45,484 nucleotides of DNA, from IMG/VR virus record IMGVR_UViG_3300036851_000471, positions 1-45,484 of that record; one strand, given 5' to 3'. This stretch comes from a virus. Position 1 is the stretch's first letter; each line of letters starts with the position of its first letter. Below, piece after piece: positions 1,090-45,484 of the stretch. The notes beneath the pieces are model-generated. The model was given only the letters and a program-made list of their open reading frames with translations. It had not been told where the DNA came from and made no database searches. The translations under genes were made by a program, and so were the position numbers.

Positions 1090-1575
1090 ATGGCACGAAA
1101 GGAACGGGATGCCAACACGGTGTCCATCAAATACGACTTCACGCCGGAAGGCGTGGTCGCTACCAAATGGAAGGGCGAGGAATTCAAATCCGGCGAAGTG
1201 CTGGATACGGATACCTTCCTTCTGCGCGAACTGCCCTTAGAGTTCGTCCAGCGGCTTACCGCCTACGGACTGGGTAAGTGGCTGCAAGATCGTACCAGCG
1301 AATCGAAGGGCGCGGACGCCAAGCTGGCCGATATGCGTGGCTACTTCGAAAAGGCGTGCGCGGGCGAATGGCGCAAGGCCGCGACGGCCTCTGTGCGCGG
1401 AATCGACCCGCTGCTGGCTGCGGCACTCGCGGAGGTGTACGACGCGCCGTTGGCCGCCGTGCTCAAGCGGCTTTCCGGCATGACGCCCGACGAACGCAAG
1501 GCGATCAACACCGGCGACGTGGCGGTGCGTTACGCCGAGCTGCGGGCGGAAGCCGAAACGGAGGTGGGCTTCTAG
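1090..1575 (+). CDS. Early-type hypothetical protein, paralogue B
   Basis: A 161-residue protein, a diverged tandem copy of the gene at 346. It keeps MARK at the start, an AYGL..WLQDRTSE block (about residues 57-72), a RGYFE...GEWR segment, PLAAVLKRLSGMT..ER and a terminal EVGF. The ribosome-binding site AGAAGGGGA precedes the ATG. It sits between its own promoter and terminator as a second monocistronic unit. The core is conserved while the N-terminal 50 residues differ, suggesting that the paralogues share a fold but differ in partner. Function unknown. Confidence 0.85.
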   Translation: MARKERDANTVSIKYDFTPEGVVATKWKGEEFKSGEVLDTDTFLLRELPLEFVQRLTAYGLGKWLQDRTSESKGADAKLADMRGYFEKACAGEWRKAATASVRGIDPLLAAALAEVYDAPLAAVLKRLSGMTPDERKAINTGDVAVRYAELRAEAETEVGF

Positions 1576-14409: not shown

Positions 14410-14457
14410 GGAGAAAAGGGGGTAAGTTATTGGCAATAATTTGCCCCCTTTATCTCC
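14410..14457. promoter_or_regulatory. Palindromic operator, copy 2 (extended dyad)
   Basis: Core 14418-14448: GGGGGTAAGTTATT and, on the other strand, GGGGGCAAATTATT. The flanking GGAGA (14410-14414) and TCTCC (14453-14457) also pair, giving arms of about 23 nt with few mismatches. It sits in the gap before the spanin gene, just ahead of its ribosome-binding site. It may act as a DNA operator or as an RNA attenuator hairpin. It shares TGCCCCCTTTAT with 1735-1747. Confidence 0.7.
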
Positions 14458-24100: not shown

Positions 24101-27100
24101 AGGTCGCGCGTTGGGCGACGCAGCGGCAGGAAATGCTCAGGGTTAAGACCGTTGATCCCGAGGCACGAAAGTTTTGGATCGGCGTGGCGGAGCTGCTGAA
24201 GCAGTTCTATACGAAGTTCCTGAAGAAGTTTGCTCCGAGCGGTACGATGGCGACGTATCTCGACGCGCTCGTTGCGGAGGTCCACGCGCAGGCGAAGGCG
24301 AAGGAACTAGGATTGACTCCTGGCACGCAGCGGGCGGCAGACCTTGGGCTCGCTGTTCCAAAGACTATCGTACAGACTTCTGGGAAGACGAAGAAGGGTA
24401 AGCCTCCGGCAGTCAAGACGGACGATACGCTGGCACCTAAGATGTTGGCAGCGCAGCGGCTCAAGAATCTCATGGCGTGGTTCGGCGACGGGGCTGTGAA
24501 GAAGGCCGACGGCACGCCGAAGCCGCTCTATCGTGGGCAGAAAGTTCTTACTCGCTACTTCAAACCGAGCAGCACTTACGCCCACGCGATTTTCCTGTCA
24601 GAGAAGAAGGGCTTCTCTGCCGGCTGGAAGTCGGCGCATCCGGAGATCGAGTGGGAACACGAGTACGACGACAAGATTCAGTGGTCCGACAAGTGGGGTC
24701 CGGAGAAGGGACTCTACAAGGTCTATACGAATATCAAGAATCCCTTCGACTTCCGCAATCCGCAGCATGTCGCCATGCTCGAGAAGAAGTTGAAGGACAA
24801 GAAGATCATCGCCGTCAAGCAACAGAGCGGCGGGACGCTTCCGGTCGCGTCGGCAATGAAAGCGGTGAAGGAAGGCGGCTGGCCTGTCCTCGAGGGACAG
24901 ACGGTACAGAACATCATCCGGTTTGAGCTTGGGCACGACGGTTTCTACATGCAGGAGGGTGGCGCCGTCAATCTCGGCGTCTACGACCCAACGAGTGTGA
25001 AGTCCGTTTCCGCGAACGTGGGGACGTTTAGTAAGGAACACGTCGAGCTAGATCTCCAGAGCGATCCGACGTCGCAGGGCGCACAGGACGCAAGGAACAC
25101 CGGAGCCACGCCGCGGATGGTTCGGGACGTGGATAACTTCACGTCAGCAAATGTGGGATGGGGTAAATTATGGGGCATAATTGATCCCCTAAACTTTCTC
25201 ACGCCGTTGCAGATTGCCGAGCGCTTCGGCATCAAGATGTTTAAGGAATACATCAATCGCGTGCAGCAGTACGCGAATACGAAGGCGAAGATTCAAGAGC
25301 AGGCCGCGGAGCTTACAGACGATGTGCGGAAGCTCTCGTCGGCGCAGAACCGCCGTTTGACGACCTTCACCTACGACGTCAGCACGTCGAGCGATGAACT
25401 CGGTCGTCGGCTCACGGAGGAGGAACTCGCCAAGCTCCGTCAGCGGCATGGCGTTACGGATCACGAGATGGAGATCTGGCGGAAGATCGACGCGTCGTTT
25501 ACGAAGGTCCTAACGGACTATGAAAGCGCGATGGTCTATGAGGCTGGCCGTCTGTTCACTCGAGACGGGAAGCAGTTCCGTCAGGCGTGGATCGCGGCAA
25601 AGGATCAGGCACAGCAGACAGCACTCATCAAGCTGCTCGCGAAGGATACGAAGGCCGGCACTGCCCTACTCGCGCAGATGAACAAGATTCAAGAGCAGTT
25701 CGGAAAGCTTCGGGAGAAGAACTACTTCCCGCGCTCACGCTTTGGCCAGTATGCGCTCCGGCTTGTGGCGACGCAGGACGGCGTGCAGTACGACGGCAAG
25801 ACGTTCAAGAAGGGCGAGACGATGGACTTCCGGCAGTACGAGTCCGAGAAGGACCGGCTGGCGGATGCGCGGCTCGTTAAGAGGGATGCACCAGCGGGTT
25901 CGCGCGTGAGCGTCGGGCTGATTGACGACACAACGTACTCCTTCATGGGCGTGCCACAGGTCGTCATTGAGATGCTCAAGAACAGCGATCTGTTGAATCT
26001 AACGGACGTGCAGAAGAACCGACTGAATGACATCGCGCTGTCGATGCTGCCTGGGCGCTCGTTCATGAAGCACCTCAAAGAGCGCAAGGGCGTCAAGGGC
26101 TATTCCGAGGATTTGCTCCGTACATACTCCAACTATATGCTCAAGGCCAGCGGGCACATCGCACGCGCGGAGCATGCACAGGACATGAGTGAGGCGCTTG
26201 CGCTCTTCAACGCGGAGACGAAGAGCTTACAGCTCGAGGACACAGATACACGGGACGCCCTGTTGTCCTACGGGAAGCGACATCTCGACTACTTGTTCAA
26301 TCCCGACAATGACCTCGCAGCGCTTCGCGCCATCGGCTTTCAGTGGTACCTGGGATTCAGCGTCAAGTCCGCCCTCGTGAACCTCACACAGGTTCCGCTC
26401 GTGACGTATCCCGTGCTCGCCGCCCGCTTCGGTGACGGAGCCGCGGTGAAGCAAATCACTCGGGCGTATAAGGACGTACGGCTCTCGCTGCACAAGATGA
26501 AACAGCTCGAAGCTCAAGTTGTTCAGGCACTCCAACAGGCTAACGCCGAAGGACTAACGAATGAATCCTTTGCGAATTCCCTCGCCGGCGCGGATGAGAA
26601 TATTGTCCTTCAGAATCTCGCGCCCAAGGGAGTCACGGATAGCATCTTGCAGAAGGCCACCTACTACGGCGGCTGGATGTTCCGGCACGCAGAAGAGTAC
26701 AACCGGCGGGTCACGCTCGTAGCCGGCATGCGCGCTGCGCTCGATGAAGGGTTGCCGTACGAGCAGGCGTACGCGGCGGCGAAGGAGGCGGTGCAGAAGT
26801 CGCAGTTCGAGTATGCGAAGTGGAATCGTCCGGAATTCATGCGTGGGAAGAAAAGCGCACTCTTTCTCTTCTGGCAGTACATTCAGCATGCGAGCTATCT
26901 CGCCTTTAATGGCGCGAATTCGAAGGAAGGGCGTCGGGCAGCGGTGCGGTATATGCTCCTGATGCTGCTCGTCGGCGGGACGCAGGGCCTCCCCTTTATG
27001 GAGACCTTGATGGACATCCTCGACTTCACGGGCACGAAAGCGAAGGAGCTGTTGGGGGTGTCGAATCCCCGTATGGCACTACGAGAGGATTTGCGCGAGC

Positions 27101-27900
27101 TGCTCGTGGAGTTGGACGTCAATCCTGACTTGGCGATGTATGGGCTCTCGAGTCACTACGGACTCGGGCCTCTGCACGCCCTGGGCCTGGCCGGCGTCCC
27201 TGTGCCCAACGTCGACATTAGCGGAAGCGTGTCGATGGGCCGGCCGATTCCGTGGTTTAATGATCTATTCACGGAGACGACGAACGTCGACGCGAAGGTT
27301 GGGAAGAACCTCTTGAACGTCCTCGGCCCGATCGCGGCAATCCCGTATCAGGTCATCCGGGCGGTGGAAAGTAACGATCCGAATACGTGGAAGAATGTAG
27401 AGCGCACGCTGCCGGTGTTCCTGAAGAACATCTCGAAGGGATATCGCTGGCTTTCGGAGGGACAGGAAACCTCGCTCGGAAGGGCAGAATTGATGAGCTT
27501 CACGGATACTCAAGGTCGCGCCGAGGCTATCGCACAGACCCTAGGCTTCACGCCGGCTCGTTTGAGCCGCAAGTACGACCTCATCGGTTCGCAGAAGGAA
27601 GCCAGTCTCTACTGGAACGTCAAGCGGAAGATGGTAATGGACGACATCGCCGATGCGTTTGCCTCGGGCGACCTGGACGCCATCAACGCGGCGATGCAGG
27701 AGATGCGGACCTTCAACTCCCAGCTGCACGACGTGCCGGAATTGCGCCCGCTGATGCTCTCCCCGCGCACGATCAAACGCAGTATGGATATGCGGGCTAA
27801 GTCCCGCCGGCAGCGGGAGATGGGACTTCCGGTAGAGCGGATGTACCGGCCACTATACCAGGAGATTGCAAAACAGCACCCCGGAGCGGATACACCATAA
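21199..27900 (+). CDS. Giant multidomain 'polyvalent-type' ejected protein (2233 aa)
   Basis: One reading frame of 2233 residues at the end of the virion operon. Seen in order: a disordered Pro-rich linker (about 290-390); a kinase-like region (about 415-620) with KSYIKFDD, VVDAWLANWDVVGLD and RTDVGGALRYRAMG; a zinc-metalloprotease motif HEFGH at residues 876-880; an ADP-ribosyltransferase-like region (about 1105-1280) from PLYRGQK to YDPTSVKSVSANVGTF; and a helical C-terminal half (1700-2200) resembling large-polyvalent-protein-associated domains. Co-injected polyvalent proteins combine such domains to counter host defence and aid entry. Assignment of each domain is inference from motifs. 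The gene contains operator copy 3, and its 3' end overlaps the opposing gene by 104 nt. It is not a recognisable N4-type virion RNA polymerase. Confidence 0.75.
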   Translation: MVDDIDRLFAAPTLPEQPLLDEMDDVDRLFYEPPAAPVEAALPPKKPGLVKSTVVAPVRGGATAIASVGRGSELIDETLGPAASAAHKATHPGYAVVSTLAEVLRKPAEKYVETHPRAVEDILEPGSAMGFLQGALERIGEVGGQFVAMPAAPLQHIGEQAETLERKEIKPTLANVAIPAAINTGLDYLGFLKVLKFAGITGDAAEKTAKSLRQVGVDYLTTTGIETGTEVVQELVTLYNAKLQADESLALTPEERYQLVQVGVDTMIGMAGLGAPSAYSQARDAQQGVNPDGTNIFDNDPKLSTEPGGTPPTTTEASSLPPPSTPVLPAPLTEGAPPLTPGVTPNAEAQERQGQGPSSTPAVPQQVATTEKPPEPIEPAATPTPSEEKPTIGSMGDMAFTQLTEEEKTFAYGKTDLNFGPYVQIGPQLGTTLGGKFIDIESGDKSYIKFDDNADRLKNEELAGKLYELAGVRTLEPRIVPDVEGKQALQTFWAEDLGSTEQVVWKAKRGFVVDAWLANWDVVGLDFTNIQADPAGNLVRTDVGGALRYRAMGAPKPPLTAEVQELTSLRDPNVNPQAAAVFANVTSADIVQGAQELAKISDDDIRSLVIQYGPEGALQKEGLADLLIARKSWIVENWAVKEPEDSYFNEPEDIDEDAIPVNTKLSTDDPSLWPVPQAAQTELGGSLDEVHAELINEVDAHLRFLSLQGKTAQGPIEVAGMKTKSMEPKYSKATPSLFDGDVSEKHLPAGGVVAGPYDAATHAPGTVVEIGIKEALAENPTAPIRFIRPLLENFIKTLAPDMKVVLTTLQVLNTKTKKQEPIGSTWGAHVSFDKANGLVAIAINIPAIQASPLLSKADAAKREVAERQLLFATVAHEFGHALMNNAFFRAANYTKIAVMKEYRTWLSFMKNASVAEFYREFPTGPHSELMLDFIKKEKPGAATMKVLDYFKEADLNYALSFNEWFAMQVARWATQRQEMLRVKTVDPEARKFWIGVAELLKQFYTKFLKKFAPSGTMATYLDALVAEVHAQAKAKELGLTPGTQRAADLGLAVPKTIVQTSGKTKKGKPPAVKTDDTLAPKMLAAQRLKNLMAWFGDGAVKKADGTPKPLYRGQKVLTRYFKPSSTYAHAIFLSEKKGFSAGWKSAHPEIEWEHEYDDKIQWSDKWGPEKGLYKVYTNIKNPFDFRNPQHVAMLEKKLKDKKIIAVKQQSGGTLPVASAMKAVKEGGWPVLEGQTVQNIIRFELGHDGFYMQEGGAVNLGVYDPTSVKSVSANVGTFSKEHVELDLQSDPTSQGAQDARNTGATPRMVRDVDNFTSANVGWGKLWGIIDPLNFLTPLQIAERFGIKMFKEYINRVQQYANTKAKIQEQAAELTDDVRKLSSAQNRRLTTFTYDVSTSSDELGRRLTEEELAKLRQRHGVTDHEMEIWRKIDASFTKVLTDYESAMVYEAGRLFTRDGKQFRQAWIAAKDQAQQTALIKLLAKDTKAGTALLAQMNKIQEQFGKLREKNYFPRSRFGQYALRLVATQDGVQYDGKTFKKGETMDFRQYESEKDRLADARLVKRDAPAGSRVSVGLIDDTTYSFMGVPQVVIEMLKNSDLLNLTDVQKNRLNDIALSMLPGRSFMKHLKERKGVKGYSEDLLRTYSNYMLKASGHIARAEHAQDMSEALALFNAETKSLQLEDTDTRDALLSYGKRHLDYLFNPDNDLAALRAIGFQWYLGFSVKSALVNLTQVPLVTYPVLAARFGDGAAVKQITRAYKDVRLSLHKMKQLEAQVVQALQQANAEGLTNESFANSLAGADENIVLQNLAPKGVTDSILQKATYYGGWMFRHAEEYNRRVTLVAGMRAALDEGLPYEQAYAAAKEAVQKSQFEYAKWNRPEFMRGKKSALFLFWQYIQHASYLAFNGANSKEGRRAAVRYMLLMLLVGGTQGLPFMETLMDILDFTGTKAKELLGVSNPRMALREDLRELLVELDVNPDLAMYGLSSHYGLGPLHALGLAGVPVPNVDISGSVSMGRPIPWFNDLFTETTNVDAKVGKNLLNVLGPIAAIPYQVIRAVESNDPNTWKNVERTLPVFLKNISKGYRWLSEGQETSLGRAELMSFTDTQGRAEAIAQTLGFTPARLSRKYDLIGSQKEASLYWNVKRKMVMDDIADAFASGDLDAINAAMQEMRTFNSQLHDVPELRPLMLSPRTIKRSMDMRAKSRRQREMGLPVERMYRPLYQEIAKQHPGADTP
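25160..25189. promoter_or_regulatory. Palindromic operator, copy 3 (inside the giant gene)
   Basis: GGGGTAAATTATG, GGG-type centre, then CATAATTGATCCCC. It lies within the coding sequence of the 2233-residue protein, so it may work as a stoperator-like roadblock rather than at a promoter. The dyad is nearly perfect (one inserted base). Confidence 0.6.
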
Positions 27901-29404: not shown

Positions 29405-30148
29405 TTATCTCCACTGAGTTTTCTGACAGTTGCCCCACGAGGCGGGGGAACACTTCAATCCCATTGGGATGATCAGCAGGTCGGGATAGGGAACGGGGAC
29501 TTTGGTAAGCTCGAAGGCAGTGGGAAGGACCAATGCTCGATCACTTTCACGGAGTTGGAATACAAGTGAATCGTGAACTTGGAGTAGGACTTGGATGATG
29601 GGAAGGTGAGTATCGAAAGCTTTCCAGATTCGGTTGATAACAAGAGCAACGGTGGATTGAGGAATCCAAGCAAGGGCCTCTTTGAGCAGCTTGTCGTCGA
29701 TGCGGGTGAGATATTTCCGTCGGTTGCCGAAGGCATTTCGCACCTCGCGGGTGGTTTGGAGTTGTTGTTCGATTCGATTGTGCCAGCGGGCGATGTCCGG
29801 GTGGGCGGCGAACCACGAGTCGATAAAGTGCTCGGCCTCGCGAAGGGAGATTTTAAGGATCGTGGATACGGTATTCGGTTGGGCTCCGTAATTCACCATG
29901 TGGACGCCCTGCTTGGCGCGGTAGTAGCGGATGTCGGAATTGTCCTCCTTGTCACAGCCGCCAAAGATGGCGATGGCATTTTCAAGGTGGAGATTTTTCC
30001 CTGAACGGAAGACTTCCTTTAGCTTTTCATCTCCGGCGTCCCACGCTACGACTTGCGCATCGGCCTTCGAAAGATCGCCTTCGAAGATAAAGTAGCCGGG
30101 GTCCGGGCGGAACAGCTTGCGGACGTTTGGAAGCTCAAGAGGTTGCAT
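29405..30148 (-). CDS. DNA polymerase A, C-terminal polymerase fragment
   Basis: A 247-residue protein with the catalytic palm and fingers of family A DNA polymerase: motif A GDLSKADAQ (Asp25), motif B K79...YG (QGVHMVNYG), motif C QVHDSLVF (His192-Asp193). It lacks exonuclease and N-terminal polymerase parts, which are in the upstream gene. The ATG overlaps that gene's stop (TAATG), with GGAGGG 6 nt upstream as its own ribosome-binding site. All polymerase residues are intact, so a two-chain enzyme is likely rather than a decayed gene. Confidence 0.85.
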   Translation of the reverse strand: MQPLELPNVRKLFRPDPGYFIFEGDLSKADAQVVAWDAGDEKLKEVFRSGKNLHLENAIAIFGGCDKEDNSDIRYYRAKQGVHMVNYGAQPNTVSTILKISLREAEHFIDSWFAAHPDIARWHNRIEQQLQTTREVRNAFGNRRKYLTRIDDKLLKEALAWIPQSTVALVINRIWKAFDTHLPIIQVLLQVHDSLVFQLRESDRALVLPTAFELTKVPVPYPDLLIIPMGLKCSPASWGNCQKTQWR

Positions 30149-31821
30149 TAGCCACCCTCCGGGATGTTCTGTAAGTTCAATCCATAGCCGAAGGCGTCCT
30201 TCGAGGAGGAGAGCCGGAACGTTTCCGTCCCGCCCAAGTTATACGAACAACGGACTTTTGAATCCGCTTCTACCCGAGCTGATACGAAGGTCGAGTAGAA
30301 AACCCCAAGGCTACGATACTCGAGGATACGCTTGCACAGCGGAGTTAGCAAGGGCTCCTTTCGCATGAGCTTGGTCAGGGCCTCATCGTCGGTGGACGGC
30401 TGACGAGTTTTACGATTGAGAATCGGATCGAATCCCAGGCAGGTGTAGAAGAGCGACGCAAGTTGCGTCGGCGAGCGGAAGAACGGCACCTTGCCCTTCG
30501 GCAGGATTCCCTCCGGGAGGATGGAGTGGAACCACGCTTCGTACTCGGACATCTTCGCCTGGAGGACGAGCGCGTATTCGCCGGCGAGCTTACGATCCCA
30601 TGTCACACCGCGGAGCATCGTGCGGAGGACTGGCTGGAACATCGACATCTGGAAGCAGTACTGCTCGTGGAGCTTTTCCCTCTGGATGATCTTCTCGATG
30701 TTCTCGCTGATTTCCCACGTTGAGACACAGTCCTTGCAGTTGTAAATCCACAGCTGCTCCTCTCCGACACCCGGTTCCCAGTCCTTCCCCTCATCCTTCC
30801 AATACATATGATAGTCGCAGTAGAGCGACGACAGCGTGTTGAGGTCCTTCGCCATGTCGCCAGGGAAAATCGTGTGCTGTGCAAGCATCGTGTCGCAATA
30901 CATGCTTATCAAGAAGTGCCAGAAGCGGGCGATATACTGCGAATCGTAGAGGAAGTTTTGGCCTACGATACGGGCATTGGGGTGCGTCAGGACATCACGC
31001 AGCGCAAGGATTATGGCGAATTCGGTCTCGAAGGGCCAATAGCCAGCGGGATTGTCCGTACACATGAGCGGGATGCACAGCGCCCGCGTCTTCGACGTCG
31101 CGATGCCGATGCAGGCGATGTGCCCGAGGCGAGTCTCAATGTCCACGGCGAGGCGCGTCGGGCCTGCGACGAGGTCTCGCTTAATGTCCGCAAGGAAGGC
31201 GAACACGGCGTCCTCGTTCGGCCTTACTGTGAAGTCAAAAGCAGGAGAAGGCCATGAGCCTTGCCTTAGCCCCATCATGGCCCGACGCAGATCATGGGTC
31301 AGCAGGATGCGCCATTGCCACTGGCGTAGCACGGCGGCTGGATGAATCGTTGGCAGTACCATTGGCAACGTCGGAAGAGAAGAAGCAAGAGAAGAGCGAA
31401 GATGCATCATCGAGCCGCGGTACTTCGTGATTCCGCTTTCGCCCGTCAGTGCCCAAAGGGCCGTGTCGCCGAGGGCGATGATTATTTTCGGTTTGACCTC
31501 CTCAATTTCGCGATTAAGTTCCAGAAGGCCAGATACAATATGAGGATGAGGATAGCGGTCGCCATAGGGAGCAATACCTCGCTTTTTCGCCTCGGTCTTT
31601 TTGTAGAAGAAATTGCCAATCTTATTCGCCGGCGGGCGATGGCGGCAGACATTCGTCACGAAGCACTGGCGTCGGTCGATCCCGGCTTCGCCTAGCATCC
31701 GCGTGAGTTCGATGCCGCTCGCGCCTACGAAGGGCTGGCCGGTTTCCTCCTCCGTCTCGCCGGGGGCTTCGCCGACGATCATTATCTCCGCGTCACGCGG
31801 TCCGCACGGGGACACCTTCAT
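30148..31821 (-). CDS. Uracil-DNA glycosylase fused to polymerase A exonuclease/N-terminal part
   Basis: A 557-residue fusion. Residues about 10-180 look like a family 4/5-type uracil-DNA glycosylase (GEAPGETEEETGQPFVG near 17-33, NVCRHRPP at 57-64, IALGD, and the HP motif at 160-161). The four Fe-S cysteines of classical family 4 are not all visible. Residues about 220-370 carry a 3'-5' exonuclease: VDIET (226-230), VGQNFLYD (286-293) and Y..KDC..T (360-368). The end (531-554: TETFRLSSS...NLQNIP) is the start of the polymerase domain, which stops just before motif A. The remainder is the next gene. Confidence 0.85.
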   Translation of the reverse strand: MKVSPCGPRDAEIMIVGEAPGETEEETGQPFVGASGIELTRMLGEAGIDRRQCFVTNVCRHRPPANKIGNFFYKKTEAKKRGIAPYGDRYPHPHIVSGLLELNREIEEVKPKIIIALGDTALWALTGESGITKYRGSMMHLRSSLASSLPTLPMVLPTIHPAAVLRQWQWRILLTHDLRRAMMGLRQGSWPSPAFDFTVRPNEDAVFAFLADIKRDLVAGPTRLAVDIETRLGHIACIGIATSKTRALCIPLMCTDNPAGYWPFETEFAIILALRDVLTHPNARIVGQNFLYDSQYIARFWHFLISMYCDTMLAQHTIFPGDMAKDLNTLSSLYCDYHMYWKDEGKDWEPGVGEEQLWIYNCKDCVSTWEISENIEKIIQREKLHEQYCFQMSMFQPVLRTMLRGVTWDRKLAGEYALVLQAKMSEYEAWFHSILPEGILPKGKVPFFRSPTQLASLFYTCLGFDPILNRKTRQPSTDDEALTKLMRKEPLLTPLCKRILEYRSLGVFYSTFVSARVEADSKVRCSYNLGGTETFRLSSSKDAFGYGLNLQNIPEGG

Positions 31822-33140
31822 GGCGCCACTTCCTTCCCGATCCCGGCGATTGTCTCAACGGACATGGCGTGATACTTCTCAGATATTTCAATTCCTGTCG
31901 CGCGGCATTTAAGTCTTGTCGCTGCCGGGAATATAGGCCCGCTCCCACAAAAAGGATCGAGCACGCTATCGCCAGGATTAACAGTTCTCTTGAGGAGATT
32001 GTGATAGACCTCGGAGGGCTTGCCGGCAGGATGGTCATGCTTTAGCTCCTGTGGGATGTCGATGACATCGTGATATAGGGCAGTAACCTTTCGCTGTCCC
32101 TTATTAGCGAAAAGGATACACTCGTATGTGTAGCGGGGTCCGAGCTCTGGGGAAGGATAAGCACCGACGTTTCCTTTGTACCAGATAAACGGACGCGGCC
32201 AGACGTCCCAGCCGGCGAGGGTGAAGAGGGCATTGAGCTTTTGAAAATTCGAAAGGTCACAGAATAGATACAAATGTGCCTGTCGTTTCGCCACTCGGAA
32301 AAAGTCGTCAGCGAGATGCTGAAAGAGAGTGAGGAAAGTTTCCGGCGAGTCGTCGTATTCATGCATGCTCCCGTCCCAGGATACGTCCTTGTGCATGTCG
32401 ACTCCATAGGGCGGGTCGGAGCAGATGACGTCGAAGGACTCGACTTCGAAGCGATGGACCTCCTGCCCGGCGTCGCCGCGAATGAGGAAGTGATCGCTCG
32501 AGGAAATGTCGATGGTCTTCCCGAGCTCGATGCGGTGGTTATCGGTGAGCTTCTTCTTGAGAATCTTCACGGCCTCGCGTTGGGACTTCGCCCGCTTCAC
32601 GTCGGGGTCGTCGAGATGCTTAACGAGGGCGATTGATTCCGATACCTCATTCGCCTCGCTGTTTAGGGCTGGAGCGCCCTTGATCTCCGACGCCGTATCG
32701 GCGTAGGTCCAGCCGGAACGACGGCCGCTGCCCCCAGTGCCGTGCTGTTCCTTCCGCATGGCGTCGAGTTCGGAGATGGCTCGAGCGCGCTCCTGCCATG
32801 TCAGGTCCACACGGAGGATGTTCTCCGTTAGCTCCGCCTCGCGGACACCGATTGGGTCGAGGTCGGAGATGGTGCTGAAGGGAATCTCGCCAGGCAGGAC
32901 ATGGCACCCGTCGTGAGTGATGGTAGAGCCAAGCTCGTGGAGTTCCTTCACGGCACGGAGACGGCGCTCACCAGCGACGAGATACCAAATGTCCTCTTCC
33001 TTGTTGTAGCGAATGACGATTGGGTGCAACAGCCCCTGCTTGAGGATGCCATTAGCCAGCTCGGTGATAGCGGCTGGCAGGAACTCCCGGCGCTGACGGT
33101 TATCGGCGACGACGATTCTATCGAGCGGAATTGTTTTCAT
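31818..33140 (-). CDS. ParB-like nuclease/CTPase-type domain fused to DNA methyltransferase
   Basis: A 440-residue protein. Residues 1-110 form a ParB/Srx domain with the LVAGERRLRA box (54-63) and N-terminal RIVVADNRQRR. Residues about 230-430 form a class beta DNA methyltransferase: DPPYG (242-246) precedes DPFCGSG (395-401), with a KP motif near 374. Such ParB-methyltransferase fusions are known in phages and may read or protect specific sites. Its start overlaps the preceding gene by 23 nt, and its stop overlaps the polymerase gene (ATGA). Confidence 0.85.
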   Translation of the reverse strand: MKTIPLDRIVVADNRQRREFLPAAITELANGILKQGLLHPIVIRYNKEEDIWYLVAGERRLRAVKELHELGSTITHDGCHVLPGEIPFSTISDLDPIGVREAELTENILRVDLTWQERARAISELDAMRKEQHGTGGSGRRSGWTYADTASEIKGAPALNSEANEVSESIALVKHLDDPDVKRAKSQREAVKILKKKLTDNHRIELGKTIDISSSDHFLIRGDAGQEVHRFEVESFDVICSDPPYGVDMHKDVSWDGSMHEYDDSPETFLTLFQHLADDFFRVAKRQAHLYLFCDLSNFQKLNALFTLAGWDVWPRPFIWYKGNVGAYPSPELGPRYTYECILFANKGQRKVTALYHDVIDIPQELKHDHPAGKPSEVYHNLLKRTVNPGDSVLDPFCGSGPIFPAATRLKCRATGIEISEKYHAMSVETIAGIGKEVAP

Positions 33141-35431: not shown

Positions 35432-35453
35432 GAAAAACTCCTGGTTCGGTTTG

Positions 35454-35484
35454 AGGGTAGAATTATTAGGGGGAAATATACCCT
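35454..35484. promoter_or_regulatory. Palindromic operator, copy 4
   Basis: AGGGTAGAATTATT ... AAATATACCCT around a G-rich centre. It lies between the promoter at 35500-35528 and the ATPase start, about where early transcribed sequence begins, so binding would block this promoter's transcription. A further AGGGTATA half-site overlaps the -10 side of the promoter. Confidence 0.65.
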
Positions 35485-39064: not shown

Positions 39065-39264
39065 GCTGCCTCCCAGAGGACATCTTTTAGGACGAGTTTT
39101 CGCAACCGTAGGACGTCCTTTGCACGGTAGTCTCGAAAGGCATCGAGCAATTGTCCATCCTTCAAGTCGACGTTCCTTCCATAGACTGACAACCCTAGGT
39201 CTTTTTCGAGGTGCTTGATAACTCGCGCAACTGTCTTTTCTGCCGGCCAACGATTCGTGCTCAT
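39061..39264 (-). CDS. Small hypothetical protein
   Basis: A 67-residue protein starting at ATG 39264 (ATGA overlap with the nuclease stop). Charged, with a helical stretch (KTVARVIKHLEKDLGL) and a basic C-terminal helix. An extended frame into the nuclease gene is unsupported. Function unknown. Confidence 0.55.
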   Translation of the reverse strand: MSTNRWPAEKTVARVIKHLEKDLGLSVYGRNVDLKDGQLLDAFRDYRAKDVLRLRKLVLKDVLWEAA

Positions 39265-40214
39265 GCTGCCTCCAACATGCGTGCGAGACGCTGCTCGTCG
39301 GATAGCGTCGGGTCCCACTCCTGAATGCGGTAGTTCCTCTCGATCCAGGCCTCGGGGTTGTTGCTGGTGCAGAGCTTAACGAAGGAGCATCCGCCGAAGG
39401 CCGCGCAGGAGTCGGAGAGGTTCAAGTCCCAGTGCTGATCCTGCCAGCATTGCTTCATGCGACGGATGTCCCGGTGCAACTGCTCGTACCAGCGCTCGAT
39501 CTCCCAATCGGGGCGATAGGTGATGACTTGTCCGTGCTTGATACCCGTCTTGAGAAGGCAGCACCCACGCACAATCGCAGCGTTCACGGGGAGATTGTAC
39601 TGCTTGGCTCCCCAAATGTAGCCAGTGAATTGGGCGCGGAGGTCCCACTGCTTGCTCCACGTTGGGCCGAGCTGCGAGCAGGTCTTCTCATCGACGACGA
39701 ATAGCGTGTCGTTCTTCTCCCCGAGCATGTCGAAGCGGATGGAGTAGAGCAATGGCTCGCCCGTCATAGGATGTTTTTCCTCGAGCGGCAGCACTGCGTT
39801 GAACTCGACGGCCGGCTTGCCGTCCATCATGTGCGGGGAGAGGTAGTCGACCTCCGGGCGGTACTCGTGCCAGTAGTCGACATAGCCAGCCGCCACGCGG
39901 TCGAAGGTCTTGTTGGAGTTCAGCCAGAACTCTGTCAGCTCCCGATCGGGATCGTAGCGGTACGCCTTGATGAGAGCGTAGAAGCCGGCGAGGAGCGCTT
40001 TGTCGAAGCCGCCGCCTTGCTCGGGGTCCCAGTAGACGCGGCGGAACACCTCGACACCCTTGGCGAAGGCGGCTCCGGCGTGGAGATGTACGGAGTCAAA
40101 CGGGGGCGCGAGGTGGCGGTGATGCGCCCAATACATCTTCGTCGGGCATGCCACGAAGGCTGAGCGCATGGTGTTGTCGAGCACGCGCGGGAACGGTAGG
40201 GGATTTGGGTTCAC
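39261..40214 (-). CDS. PD-(D/E)XK nuclease with possible 4Fe-4S cluster
   Basis: A 317-residue nuclease of the Cas4/AddB-like group. Core residues are His45 in the HAGAAF box, Asp162 (RFDMLGE), Asp175-Glu176-Lys177 (VVDEKT) and Gln195 (RAQFTGYIWG). Four cysteines, Cys23 near the start and Cys270, Cys276 and Cys282 near the end, have the split N/C layout seen in Fe-S-stabilised members, though spacing (CX5CX5C) is unusual. It probably acts in recombination-dependent replication or end processing with the ATPase and ssDNA-binding protein. GTG start overlaps the upstream stop (GTGA). Confidence 0.75.
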   Translation of the reverse strand: MNPNPLPFPRVLDNTMRSAFVACPTKMYWAHHRHLAPPFDSVHLHAGAAFAKGVEVFRRVYWDPEQGGGFDKALLAGFYALIKAYRYDPDRELTEFWLNSNKTFDRVAAGYVDYWHEYRPEVDYLSPHMMDGKPAVEFNAVLPLEEKHPMTGEPLLYSIRFDMLGEKNDTLFVVDEKTCSQLGPTWSKQWDLRAQFTGYIWGAKQYNLPVNAAIVRGCCLLKTGIKHGQVITYRPDWEIERWYEQLHRDIRRMKQCWQDQHWDLNLSDSCAAFGGCSFVKLCTSNNPEAWIERNYRIQEWDPTLSDEQRLARMLEAA

Positions 40215-40889: not shown

Positions 40890-41147
40890 TTAGATGAAGT
40901 TTTTGAGCAAGTCGTTAGCTTGCTCGGGGCTGAGGGCAGGCTTCTTTGGAGCCTTGGGCTCCTTCGTCTTCGCGCCTAAGACGGCCTGCCCCCGGAGGGC
41001 AACGTAATAGGCGAGTGCGGCTTTGAATTCCTCCGTGGGGACTTCCTCGCCAGCGGCGACACGCCGGCGGAGATCGTTGATGCGCTCGCCATTCATCGGG
41101 GGCGGCGTGGGCGCAGGAGTTTGTGTTCCGGGTTCGCTCATAGTCAT
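40890..41147 (-). CDS. Hypothetical protein
   Basis: An 85-residue protein. Pro/Thr-rich N-terminus followed by a helix (RINDLRRRVAAGEEVPTEEFKAAL) and a Lys/Pro-rich linker. It overlaps the ribbon-helix-helix gene stop (ATGA) and is likely co-regulated with it. Function unknown. Confidence 0.55.
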   Translation of the reverse strand: MTMSEPGTQTPAPTPPPMNGERINDLRRRVAAGEEVPTEEFKAALAYYVALRGQAVLGAKTKEPKAPKKPALSPEQANDLLKNFI

Positions 41148-41362
41148 GCTCCAATGCTGTCGAGGGTTTTCTGTCCGGCCTTTCGGAGCCGGGCTAGATG
41201 CTCACGCAGGAGTTGCTCAATGAGCAAGCTCCAGGCGCCGTGCTCTGGACGCTGGTGCAGGGGGTCGAGGAGGACAATGTCGACCTCGCGGACGAGCGAC
41301 TTCGGAAGCGAGATCCGCTTCTTCTCCATCACTTCGAGTTTGCGTGGGCGTCCAGCGGGCAT
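41144..41362 (-). CDS. Ribbon-helix-helix (CopG/MetJ-like) DNA-binding protein
   Basis: A 72-residue protein. After GRPRK, the strand MEKKRISLPKSLVREVDIVL and the helix pair (GAWSLLIEQLLREHLARL) form a ribbon-helix-helix, the fold of dimeric repressors such as Arc and MetJ. It is the first gene behind the promoter at 41401-41429, which overlaps operator copy 5. It is therefore the prime candidate to recognise the dispersed palindromes and regulate itself. Confidence 0.65.
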   Translation of the reverse strand: MPAGRPRKLEVMEKKRISLPKSLVREVDIVLLDPLHQRPEHGAWSLLIEQLLREHLARLRKAGQKTLDSIGA

Positions 41363-41383
41363 AGGGGAAACTCCGTGGGTCTT

Positions 41384-41412
41384 GGGGGAATAATGGGGAA
41401 ATTATAGCCCCC
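41384..41412. promoter_or_regulatory. Palindromic operator, copy 5, on the RHH promoter
   Basis: GGGGG-AATAAT ... ATTATAG-CCCCC, 29 bp, with a GGGG centre. It spans the -10 (41401-41406) and the expected start of the leftward promoter, so a bound protein would occlude RNA polymerase. Confidence 0.7.
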
Positions 41413-41429
41413 AAAACCCGACGGGTCAA
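41401..41429 (-). promoter_or_regulatory. Leftward sigma70-type promoter of the RHH gene
   Basis: On the - strand: TTGACC (41429-41424), 17-bp spacer, TATAAT (41406-41401). It overlaps operator copy 5 and reads into the RHH gene at 41362 with a leader of about 30 nt. The -35 and spacer match the design of the promoter at 35500. Confidence 0.85.
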
Positions 41430-41432
41430 CTC

Positions 41433-41954
41433 CTAGTCGACATCCAGCGTCCCGAGTTCGGCCGGCTCTGGGTCGACGTCGAGGGTGTTGTCGTCGCACA
41501 CGAGCTTCGAGCGGGTGGCGGTGTATTCCTCCGTCACGATGTGGCAGTTCTTGCTCTTGTTCGTCCAGACAGTGACGTAAAGTACCACACGTTTGTCCTG
41601 TCGGGCCTGCGCGGTCCAGCTGAAGTATTCACCGGTGTCGGAGCCCGTACATCTGAAGCCCGCGCAGACGATGTCCTCGAGTAGGGACTCGATAATGTCC
41701 TTAACAGTGTCCTGCTCGCCGAGGTGGATGTCCAAGTTGATGTAGTCGGCGCCGAGCACGAGGCTCAGGTGCCGCTGTTTGTCGAAGTTCCCGGCGTGGG
41801 GGTCTTTCTCCAGCCAGTTATTGAGGATTTCGACGAGGCGCTCGGCATAGAACTTCGCGCGGGGGAGGCCCTCAACGACGAGGGCGCGGTATTCCTCCAG
41901 AGAGCGCAGGCCCTCCTGCACCTGTAGCTCGAGATCGACGTATTTGATTTTCAT
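41433..41954 (-). CDS. Hypothetical protein
   Basis: A 173-residue protein coupled upstream by ATGA. Mixed alpha/beta, with a coiled-coil-like N-terminal helix (LELQVQEGLRSLEEY) and an acidic C-terminus. Four Cys are scattered and not in a clear metal site. No family recognised. Confidence 0.6.
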   Translation of the reverse strand: MKIKYVDLELQVQEGLRSLEEYRALVVEGLPRAKFYAERLVEILNNWLEKDPHAGNFDKQRHLSLVLGADYINLDIHLGEQDTVKDIIESLLEDIVCAGFRCTGSDTGEYFSWTAQARQDKRVVLYVTVWTNKSKNCHIVTEEYTATRSKLVCDDNTLDVDPEPAELGTLDVD

Positions 41955-44524: not shown

Positions 44525-45292
44525 TCAAGCGTGTGTCGTTTCTTTCGCCGGCGGGACTGCGGTGCGGGCGATGGCTTTCTCGCGGTCCCAGCCGTCGGGG
44601 AGGAGGTGTGTGGGAGTGTACTTGTCGGTGTCGGTCGCTGGACCAGTTTGGCCGGGGAACCTGCCCTCGCGCCAGAGGCGGTCCATTGTCCGGATTTCGA
44701 TCTCGGAATAGACTTTCGGCCCTGCGGGCACTGCAGCGGTGGGCGGTGTCTCGTCGAGGCCCTGGGCACGGCGGACGACTTCGGGAGGCACCGGCACGTC
44801 GCTGCTGTATGCTTCTTCCCGAGCTTCCTGAGGGGTAGAATTATCCCCTATAATTTGACCCCGCTTCCCGTCGCCCTGGCCGTACATCTCGAGTACCTTT
44901 CCACCGCCGCTCATACGTCCTTTGATCTCTGAGGCTTCTTGATAGGCGACTGTGTTGATGAATTCCTCCTGGGCTTTCGCGGCTTTGAGCTGTGGTAGCA
45001 GCTGCTCCATGAGGCTCATCTCTTGTTCGTCTGTGCCGCGGTTCACGGCGATGCATTTCTTCCCGATGAGCTTGATCATGTATCCGGCCGCGGCCCTTCG
45101 CTGCGCAAGGAGTTTCTCGTCGGGCGAGCGGGTGCAGGCTTTGAGGTAGGAGTACCACTTCAAGCGAAAGTTCCTCGCGGCCTTCTCGGTGGCGAATTCG
45201 AGCTCGACGGGCTCGAGGGGAAATTGCGAGAGGGTGTCGAGCAGGAGCTTGTAGCTTGGAGGGTAGTATTCGGGGGATTTGGGGTGCGGCAT
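44525..45292 (-). CDS. First leftward gene, hypothetical
   Basis: A 255-residue protein behind the leftward promoter 45323-45351, so probably the earliest left-arm product. The first two thirds is helical and charged (AARNFRLKWYSYLKACTRS, EEFINTVAYQEASEIKGRM). The C-terminal part is Pro-rich with an IEIRTMDRLWREGRFPG segment. No recognised domain. It contains operator copy 6 in its coding sequence. Confidence 0.7.
   Translation of the reverse strand: MPHPKSPEYYPPSYKLLLDTLSQFPLEPVELEFATEKAARNFRLKWYSYLKACTRSPDEKLLAQRRAAAGYMIKLIGKKCIAVNRGTDEQEMSLMEQLLPQLKAAKAQEEFINTVAYQEASEIKGRMSGGGKVLEMYGQGDGKRGQIIGDNSTPQEAREEAYSSDVPVPPEVVRRAQGLDETPPTAAVPAGPKVYSEIEIRTMDRLWREGRFPGQTGPATDTDKYTPTHLLPDGWDREKAIARTAVPPAKETTHA
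44832..44862. promoter_or_regulatory. Palindromic operator, copy 6 (inside the first leftward gene)
   Basis: GGGGTAGAATTAT, CCCCT-type centre, then ATAATTTGACCCC: 11 of 13 arm positions match. It lies in coding sequence, about 460 bp downstream of the left-arm promoter, a position suited to a transcription roadblock. Confidence 0.65.
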
Positions 45293-45352: not shown

Positions 45353-45484
45353 CTAATGTCTATACCCCCGACATTGTACAACATTGCTCAAGGTTACACA
45401 GATCGAGCCCCTACCGGCACTTTGCCCCTGTCCCTTCTTCTTCGTCAAAAAAAAAAAAAAAAAAAGACTGGAAAGGGTGTAAGG
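45353..45484. repeat. Right copy of terminal direct repeat
   Basis: Same sequence as 1-133, with one A fewer in the homopolymer (19 against 20). See the left copy. The unit length of the molecule is therefore about 45.35 kb. Confidence 0.9.

Follow-up and report, generated by a model that had tools for sequence, protein, structure and literature searches.

A probable autorepressor and candidate reader of a genome-wide palindrome array in a lineage of phages

A strong promoter whose -10 box lies inside a palindrome, followed directly by a gene for a small protein with a predicted DNA-binding fold, raises the question of whether one phage protein controls its own synthesis and, through further copies of the palindrome, other genes of the same genome. 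We have investigated this question in a single viral IMG/VR record, 45,484 bases long and hereafter called the window. The same 132 bp are found at both window ends (1-132 and 45353-45484), indicating a circular or permuted assembly; the identical ends make the genome circular as assembled, with a length of ~45,352 bp. Genes are divided by strand, late genes being located on the plus and early genes on the minus strand. A minus-strand gap of 70 bp (41363-41432), between the ORFs at 41433-41954 and 41144-41362, holds a promoter composed of a -35 box, TTGACC (41429-41424, minus), a 17-bp spacer and a -10 box, TATAAT (41406-41401, minus), matching 11 of 12 consensus bases. When sites were ranked genome-wide, this promoter received the highest sigma70-like score in the window (14.6, the next being 13.1), in which only 8 sites score at least 10.8. 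The downstream ORF starts ~40 nt from the -10 and is preceded by a likely ribosome-binding site, GGAG (41374-41371, minus), read from the sequence 8 nt before the ATG. It encodes a ribbon-helix-helix-like protein of 72 aa, MPAGRPRKLEVMEKKRISLPKSLVREVDIVLLDPLHQRPEHGAWSLLIEQLLREHLARLRKAGQKTLDSIGA (41144-41362, minus), proposed here as autorepressor and array reader. This gene is the first behind the promoter and is followed in the same operon by a conserved 85-aa gene (40890-41147, minus), which overlaps its end by 4 bp, and further on by a PD-(D/E)XK nuclease gene (39261-40214, minus; Pfam PF12705, E 4e-6). The -10 box is contained within the palindrome copy termed S5, exactly as the original prediction stated. 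The autorepressor layout which that prediction deduced, consisting of a regulator gene placed first behind its own promoter with an operator on the -10, is likewise seen in the sequence and is supported by comparison with related phages.

Six palindrome copies were computed from the window sequence. S1 (GGGGTACAATTATCAGGAATAACTATACCCC, 1766-1796) is centred 232 bp upstream of the start of a small-terminase-like gene, terS (2013-2564, plus), which precedes TerL (phrog_38). S2 (GGGGGTAAGTTATTGGCAATAATTTGCCCCC, 14418-14448) is located between late genes and adjoins the lysis cassette, S3 (TGGGGTAAATTATGGGGCATAATTGATCCCC, 25159-25189) lies within an ORF of 2233 aa, S4 (GAGGGTAGAATTATTAGGGGGAAATATACCC, 35453-35483) is positioned just downstream of the promoter TTGACC-17-TATACT (35528-35500, minus) and upstream of a Sak4-like gene (phrog_124), and S6 (GGGGTAGAATTATCCCCTATAATTTGACCCC, 44832-44862) lies within a 255-aa ORF (44525-45292, minus). 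S5 (41381-41412, with GGGGGAATAATGGGGAAATTATAGCCCCC at 41384-41412) is a degenerate copy over the -10 of the 72-aa gene promoter. The half-site consensus, GGGGTAnAATTAT, is matched at 11 or more of 12 positions five times against 0.05 expected, and at 10 or more positions eight times against 0.8 expected. Ranking by convergent half-site pairs places S6, S1, S3, S2 and S4 first to fifth genome-wide, paired scores of 16 or above being absent from random sequence. S5 is the weakest copy of the array, ranking sixth in a tie with two other sites at a score that turns up 2.8 times in a random genome. What makes this copy credible is its place in the 70-bp gap between two genes, on the promoter that scores best, for which the local chance, estimated after the fact, is ~0.004; being weak, its case rests partly on this position over the promoter. 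A weak S5 would suit an autorepressor site that is filled last. Neither of the intragenic copies, S3 and S6, coincides with a strong promoter, and the array thus includes copies that are not promoter operators. According to the original prediction, a protein that reads all six copies would be a global regulator acting on terminase, lysis, recombination and early genes; comparison supports one regulator for several units, but a view of the array as six promoters is too simple.

The 72-aa product had been described as a small ribbon-helix-helix protein encoded by the first gene behind the promoter. The gene order stands, while the fold is a prediction. Searches of Pfam, PHROG and PDB sequences return no significant match either with the 72-aa protein alone or with an alignment of its homologues, and no single homologue has a significant Pfam or PHROG match. 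Neither tblastn against an annotated phage collection nor a direct search of viral contigs with the 72-aa protein yields a match; the relatives carrying homologues were located through the large terminase, TerL. Homologues with 27-47% identity are present in 12 related phage records, in the early operon and at the same place before the 85-aa and PD-(D/E)XK genes. A homologue profile adds Vibrio phage VS-ABTNL-3, Microcystis phage Mel-JY34, MW202489, G022 and G034; our literature search found no paper on the isolates VS-ABTNL-3 and Mel-JY34 and none on such arrays in the lineage. The family alignment reveals a basic N-terminal segment and a strand-like segment in which hydrophobic and polar residues alternate, followed by the start of a helix; on inspection of the alignment, the strand-like segments read KKRISLPKSL, KKLSLRSSL and VTFRISESL in different homologues. 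A glycine, G42, is invariant in 14 homologues, precedes the second helix and is mostly followed by A-x-S; the family thus possesses the Gly-x-Ser-like turn of the ribbon-helix-helix superfamily, with an inter-helix loop longer than that of Arc or CopG. An AF2 monomer model built from 14 sequences is extended to residue 20 with helices at 21-30 and 43-70 (pLDDT 78), the look that would be expected of a ribbon-helix-helix monomer; the strand of this fold pairs only in the dimer. Alignment with hhalign against six known ribbon-helix-helix sequences places strand on strand as a weak match (P 0.067). Foldseek and VIA-align searches with two AF2 models find no significant PDB match, and two viral models were matched in the structure search with TM values of 0.71 and 0.58 (E 0.02-0.05).

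Related phages contain comparable arrays. Families of mutually similar 33-bp palindromes were sought de novo, with no use of gene positions, and the sites were then listed by profile scans; many relatives were found to possess their own family of 2-8 dispersed palindromes of 31-33 bp. Half-site sequence varies from phage to phage and the 31-33-bp frame is constant. The profile scans describe families with GGGGCRGATTAT (G030/G031), GACCTRATTACTC (G029), ACCGTnnTTTAATC (G011), ATTGCATnTT (G021/G032/G028), ACAAGTAGTTT (G010), ATTGTAnnGTTGCC (G020) and CCGCCGGGTTTAC (MW202489, 8 sites), among others, and the family of G045, CCCGCGGGGATAT, has one site 77 bp upstream of terS. The isolate VS-ABTNL-3 likewise possesses an array. 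The G030/G031 family does not exceed the de novo control alone and rests on the profile scan together with corresponding positions in both genomes. G034 encodes the protein and has two or three palindromes, a number not above control, and G025, in which the protein accompanies a GC-rich palindrome family that could represent terminators, was left out of the count. Palindrome families are also present in G016, G028, G019, G013, G014 and G035, contigs from which the nuclease (regulator) region is missing and which are uninformative on the reader. The window motif gave no hit in a scan of viral contigs, and the same scan with the G021/G032 motif retrieved, besides those two, records from which both TerL and the regulator are absent, so that the operator-first search is uninformative.

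The sites recur at fixed gene positions. Of 18 phages, 15 have a site at or just before the terS start, with a centre between 7 bp inside the gene and 232 bp ahead of it (chance 0.034 per genome, P 6e-20), a site follows the capsid gene by no more than 500 bp in 8 of 16 genomes (P 7e-7), and 13 of 69 sites overlap a top-ranked promoter against 1.4 expected at random positions (permutation P <0.0005), P values that are optimistic because the phages are partly related. Promoter-overlapping sites besides S5 include those at 27135 in G021 (TTGACA-17-TAGAAT), 41145 in G032 and 3660 in G010, and in the first two the -10 is located four bases before the palindrome centre. S1 lies ~220 bp upstream of the -10 of the terS promoter, its counterparts in G021 and G032 being 65 and 91 bp upstream of theirs. 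The recurrent site at terS, a gene near which packaging often starts, the intragenic copies and the presence of an encoded protein with a ParB_N domain would also be compatible with parS-like or pac-like sites that serve segregation, packaging or replication of the DNA and not its transcription. We give this explanation a very low probability, as the sites are enriched on strong promoters, the copies are few and widely spaced, and the array is kept in MW202489 though this phage has only TerS and replication genes, not TerL or virion genes, in common with the window.

Palindromes can also act in RNA. S2 has the potential for a stem with 16 of 18 pairs, and several sites, such as those after the capsid gene, separate genes that belong to one operon, as would be seen if the palindromes were hairpins involved in termination, processing or attenuation and overlapped promoters by chance. 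In nearly every phage, however, arm identity between copies is about equal to complementarity within a copy, indicating conservation of the half-site sequence itself, which is expected where a protein binds and not in an RNA stem. Pairing that is kept while the sequence varies between copies, the signature of hairpins and terminators, was not observed, and the sites occur on -10 boxes and in both directions of transcription. The hairpin reading was rejected by this comparison of arms and retains, in our judgement, only a slight chance of being correct.

If the palindromes are protein sites, the question becomes which protein reads them. G005 and G008, in which the early operon region is intact, are without the 72-aa gene at its usual place and have kept homologues of TerS, Sak4 and the nuclease; no array was detected genome-wide in either phage and no site upstream of terS. 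Of all protein families, three occur in the array-positive phages but in neither G005 nor G008: the 72-aa protein, a 171-aa protein and a ParB-methyltransferase. BLAST clustering places the 72-aa family in 8 of the 9 array-positive phages and the profile finds a diverged copy in the ninth. Among these families only the 72-aa protein has the look of an operator binder. A search by regulator alone, using the MW202489 homologue, fetched a further phage, G045, in which the predicted array was found. Over 13 phages, the rank correlation with operator similarity is 0.35 for the 72-aa protein, a lead of small margin over the 0.07-0.28 of eight other proteins, and a covariation test on 9 phages did not single it out. 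No array was detected in G009, G022 and Microcystis phage Mel-JY34, all of which have the 72-aa protein; the G022 homologue was detected by the improved profile and G022 is outside the negative set. In most relatives no palindrome immediately precedes the regulator gene; one is located at the 3' end of the gene in G011 and one ~0.7 kb upstream of it in G020. From this co-occurrence and comparison, we consider it moderately probable that the 72-aa protein reads the palindromes.

Alternatively, a real array could be read by another phage protein, the 171-aa family, the ParB-methyltransferase or the small-terminase-like protein with its HTH, the 72-aa gene being just one of the genes under control. 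The first two share the presence pattern of the 72-aa protein (9/9 array-positive phages, 0/2 negatives), the terS-upstream site is a closer tie than any with the 72-aa gene, and the Mantel test on 9 phages is equal for TerS, the nuclease and the 72-aa protein. However, the TerS homologue is present in G005 and G008 where the array is absent, folds known to bind long operators are seen neither in the methyltransferase nor in the 171-aa family (without a Pfam match and with a PHROG of unknown function), and the 72-aa protein provides the best rank correlation over the 13 phages. G008 is a fragment, and the absence of a methyltransferase from it therefore carries little weight. We regard another phage reader as unlikely. 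A host transcription factor could read the palindromes if the phages had borrowed a host regulon, and the motifs would then differ because the hosts do, which for the relatives include Vibrio and Microcystis. This appears improbable: the arrays keep to the same phage gene positions, relatives without one early gene have no array, and the window motif in its 20-base-specified exact form occurs 0 times in genomes of 84,980 species, a weak point as it concerns the exact form only.

Two of the genes named above have features of their own. The 171-aa protein (346-861, plus; a phrog_28928 match of unknown function) has a 161-aa paralogue at 1090-1575 (plus), and each of the two genes has a strong TTGACA promoter of its own, with the -10 at 270 and 1032, respectively. 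The methyltransferase gene (31818-33140, minus) encodes an N6/N4 DNA methyltransferase fused with a ParB_N domain, is conserved in the lineage and is missing in G005.

The 72-aa protein is a probable autorepressor and genome-wide regulator, with a putative binding to the palindromes. On balance we favour an explanation in which this ribbon-helix-helix-type protein would shut down the promoter of its gene and also act at the five remaining palindromes, providing feedback and timed repression. Its synthesis would start early, from the strongest phage promoter, and the protein would bind as one dimer per half-site, two dimers occupying each 31-bp operator. The palindromes of high affinity, S1 before terS, S2, S6 and S3, would be filled first and the weak S5 last. 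At S5 the protein would cover its own -10 and stop RNA polymerase, resulting in negative feedback on the regulator-recombination operon. Timed repression could reach the recombination gene via S4 at the Sak4 promoter and packaging and late genes via S1 and S2, and activation instead at some late promoters is also possible. The intragenic copies may serve as elongation roadblocks, looping partners or reservoir sites. A wider reading, which we hold only tentatively, is that of a lineage-wide private code: one small ribbon-helix-helix-like regulator, not described before, and its 31-33-bp operators would co-diversify quickly while retaining the same positions in each phage, at terS, after the capsid gene, in the recombination operon and at the regulator itself, with intragenic copies acting as roadblocks or in looping.

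Parts of this arrangement are known from other viruses. Arc and Mnt of phage P22 are small ribbon-helix-helix repressors with an operator at a promoter. The window protein, with its predicted fold, resembles them in these respects, whereas they use one local operator of ~20 bp in a temperate switch, have no genome-wide array and possess no significant sequence similarity to it beyond a weak profile match. Closer in layout is SvtR of the archaeal virus SIRV1, a small ribbon-helix-helix protein that is a repressor of its own promoter and also binds at three further places in the viral genome; the strongest of these sites belongs to a structural gene and lies ~80 nt away from the promoter elements (PMC5569661). 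As in the window array, its own promoter is combined with distant structural-gene sites; SvtR differs in its archaeal host and promoter elements, in site sequence and in the absence of a sequence match, and its binding has been shown whereas that of the window protein is predicted. F55 of the archaeal virus SSV1, also a ribbon-helix-helix protein, binds its own promoter and several early ones, the affinity being graded (PMC5569661), but its sites are tandem repeats, not 31-bp palindromes, and it maintains lysogeny in an archaeal system. Cluster O mycobacteriophages such as Corndog contain more than 30 copies of dispersed 17-bp palindromic repeats whose reader is unknown (PMC4351075). Like the window array these repeats are dyad-symmetric, similarly positioned in related phages and partly intragenic; unlike it, they have invariant arms and are mostly located away from promoters, whereas the sites of the window lineage are 31-33 bp long, number 2-8, are phage-specific and are enriched at promoters. 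The stoperators of Cluster A mycobacteriophages are repressor sites found in large number along the genome, including inside transcribed regions (PMC4351075). They are asymmetric and oriented with transcription, whereas the window sites are palindromic, and the array therefore does not fit the stoperator class.

What is new is the occurrence of operator arrays that are lineage-wide, conserved in position and private in sequence, linked to one small unclassified protein family. They offer a testable scheme in which the timing of early, recombination, packaging and late genes would be set by one protein of 72 aa. If this protein is the reader, its natural variants are different regulator-operator pairs on a fixed scaffold, useful for studying the evolution of DNA specificity in small beta-strand binders whose 2-8 operators must all change in concert. 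A true private code would amount to a natural series of orthogonal repressor-operator pairs, with a possible use as orthogonal parts for gene circuits.

MW202489 (L098, phage ctMlz233) has replication-recombination genes, the TerS homologue, the regulator and the array in common with the window, and TerL, portal and capsid not; G045 is similar to MW202489, and no match to the TerL, portal or capsid protein of the window was found in it. By gene content, the array travels with the early module. The region upstream of terS (1640-2000) contains several hairpins and a C-rich block, and a similar CCCCCACCC-type block is located upstream of terS in many relatives, possibly marking the packaging start. 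The PolA-like polymerase of the window (29405-31821, minus) is encoded by two adjacent ORFs of 557 and 247 aa, a split also observed in several relatives, the gene being a single ORF in others.
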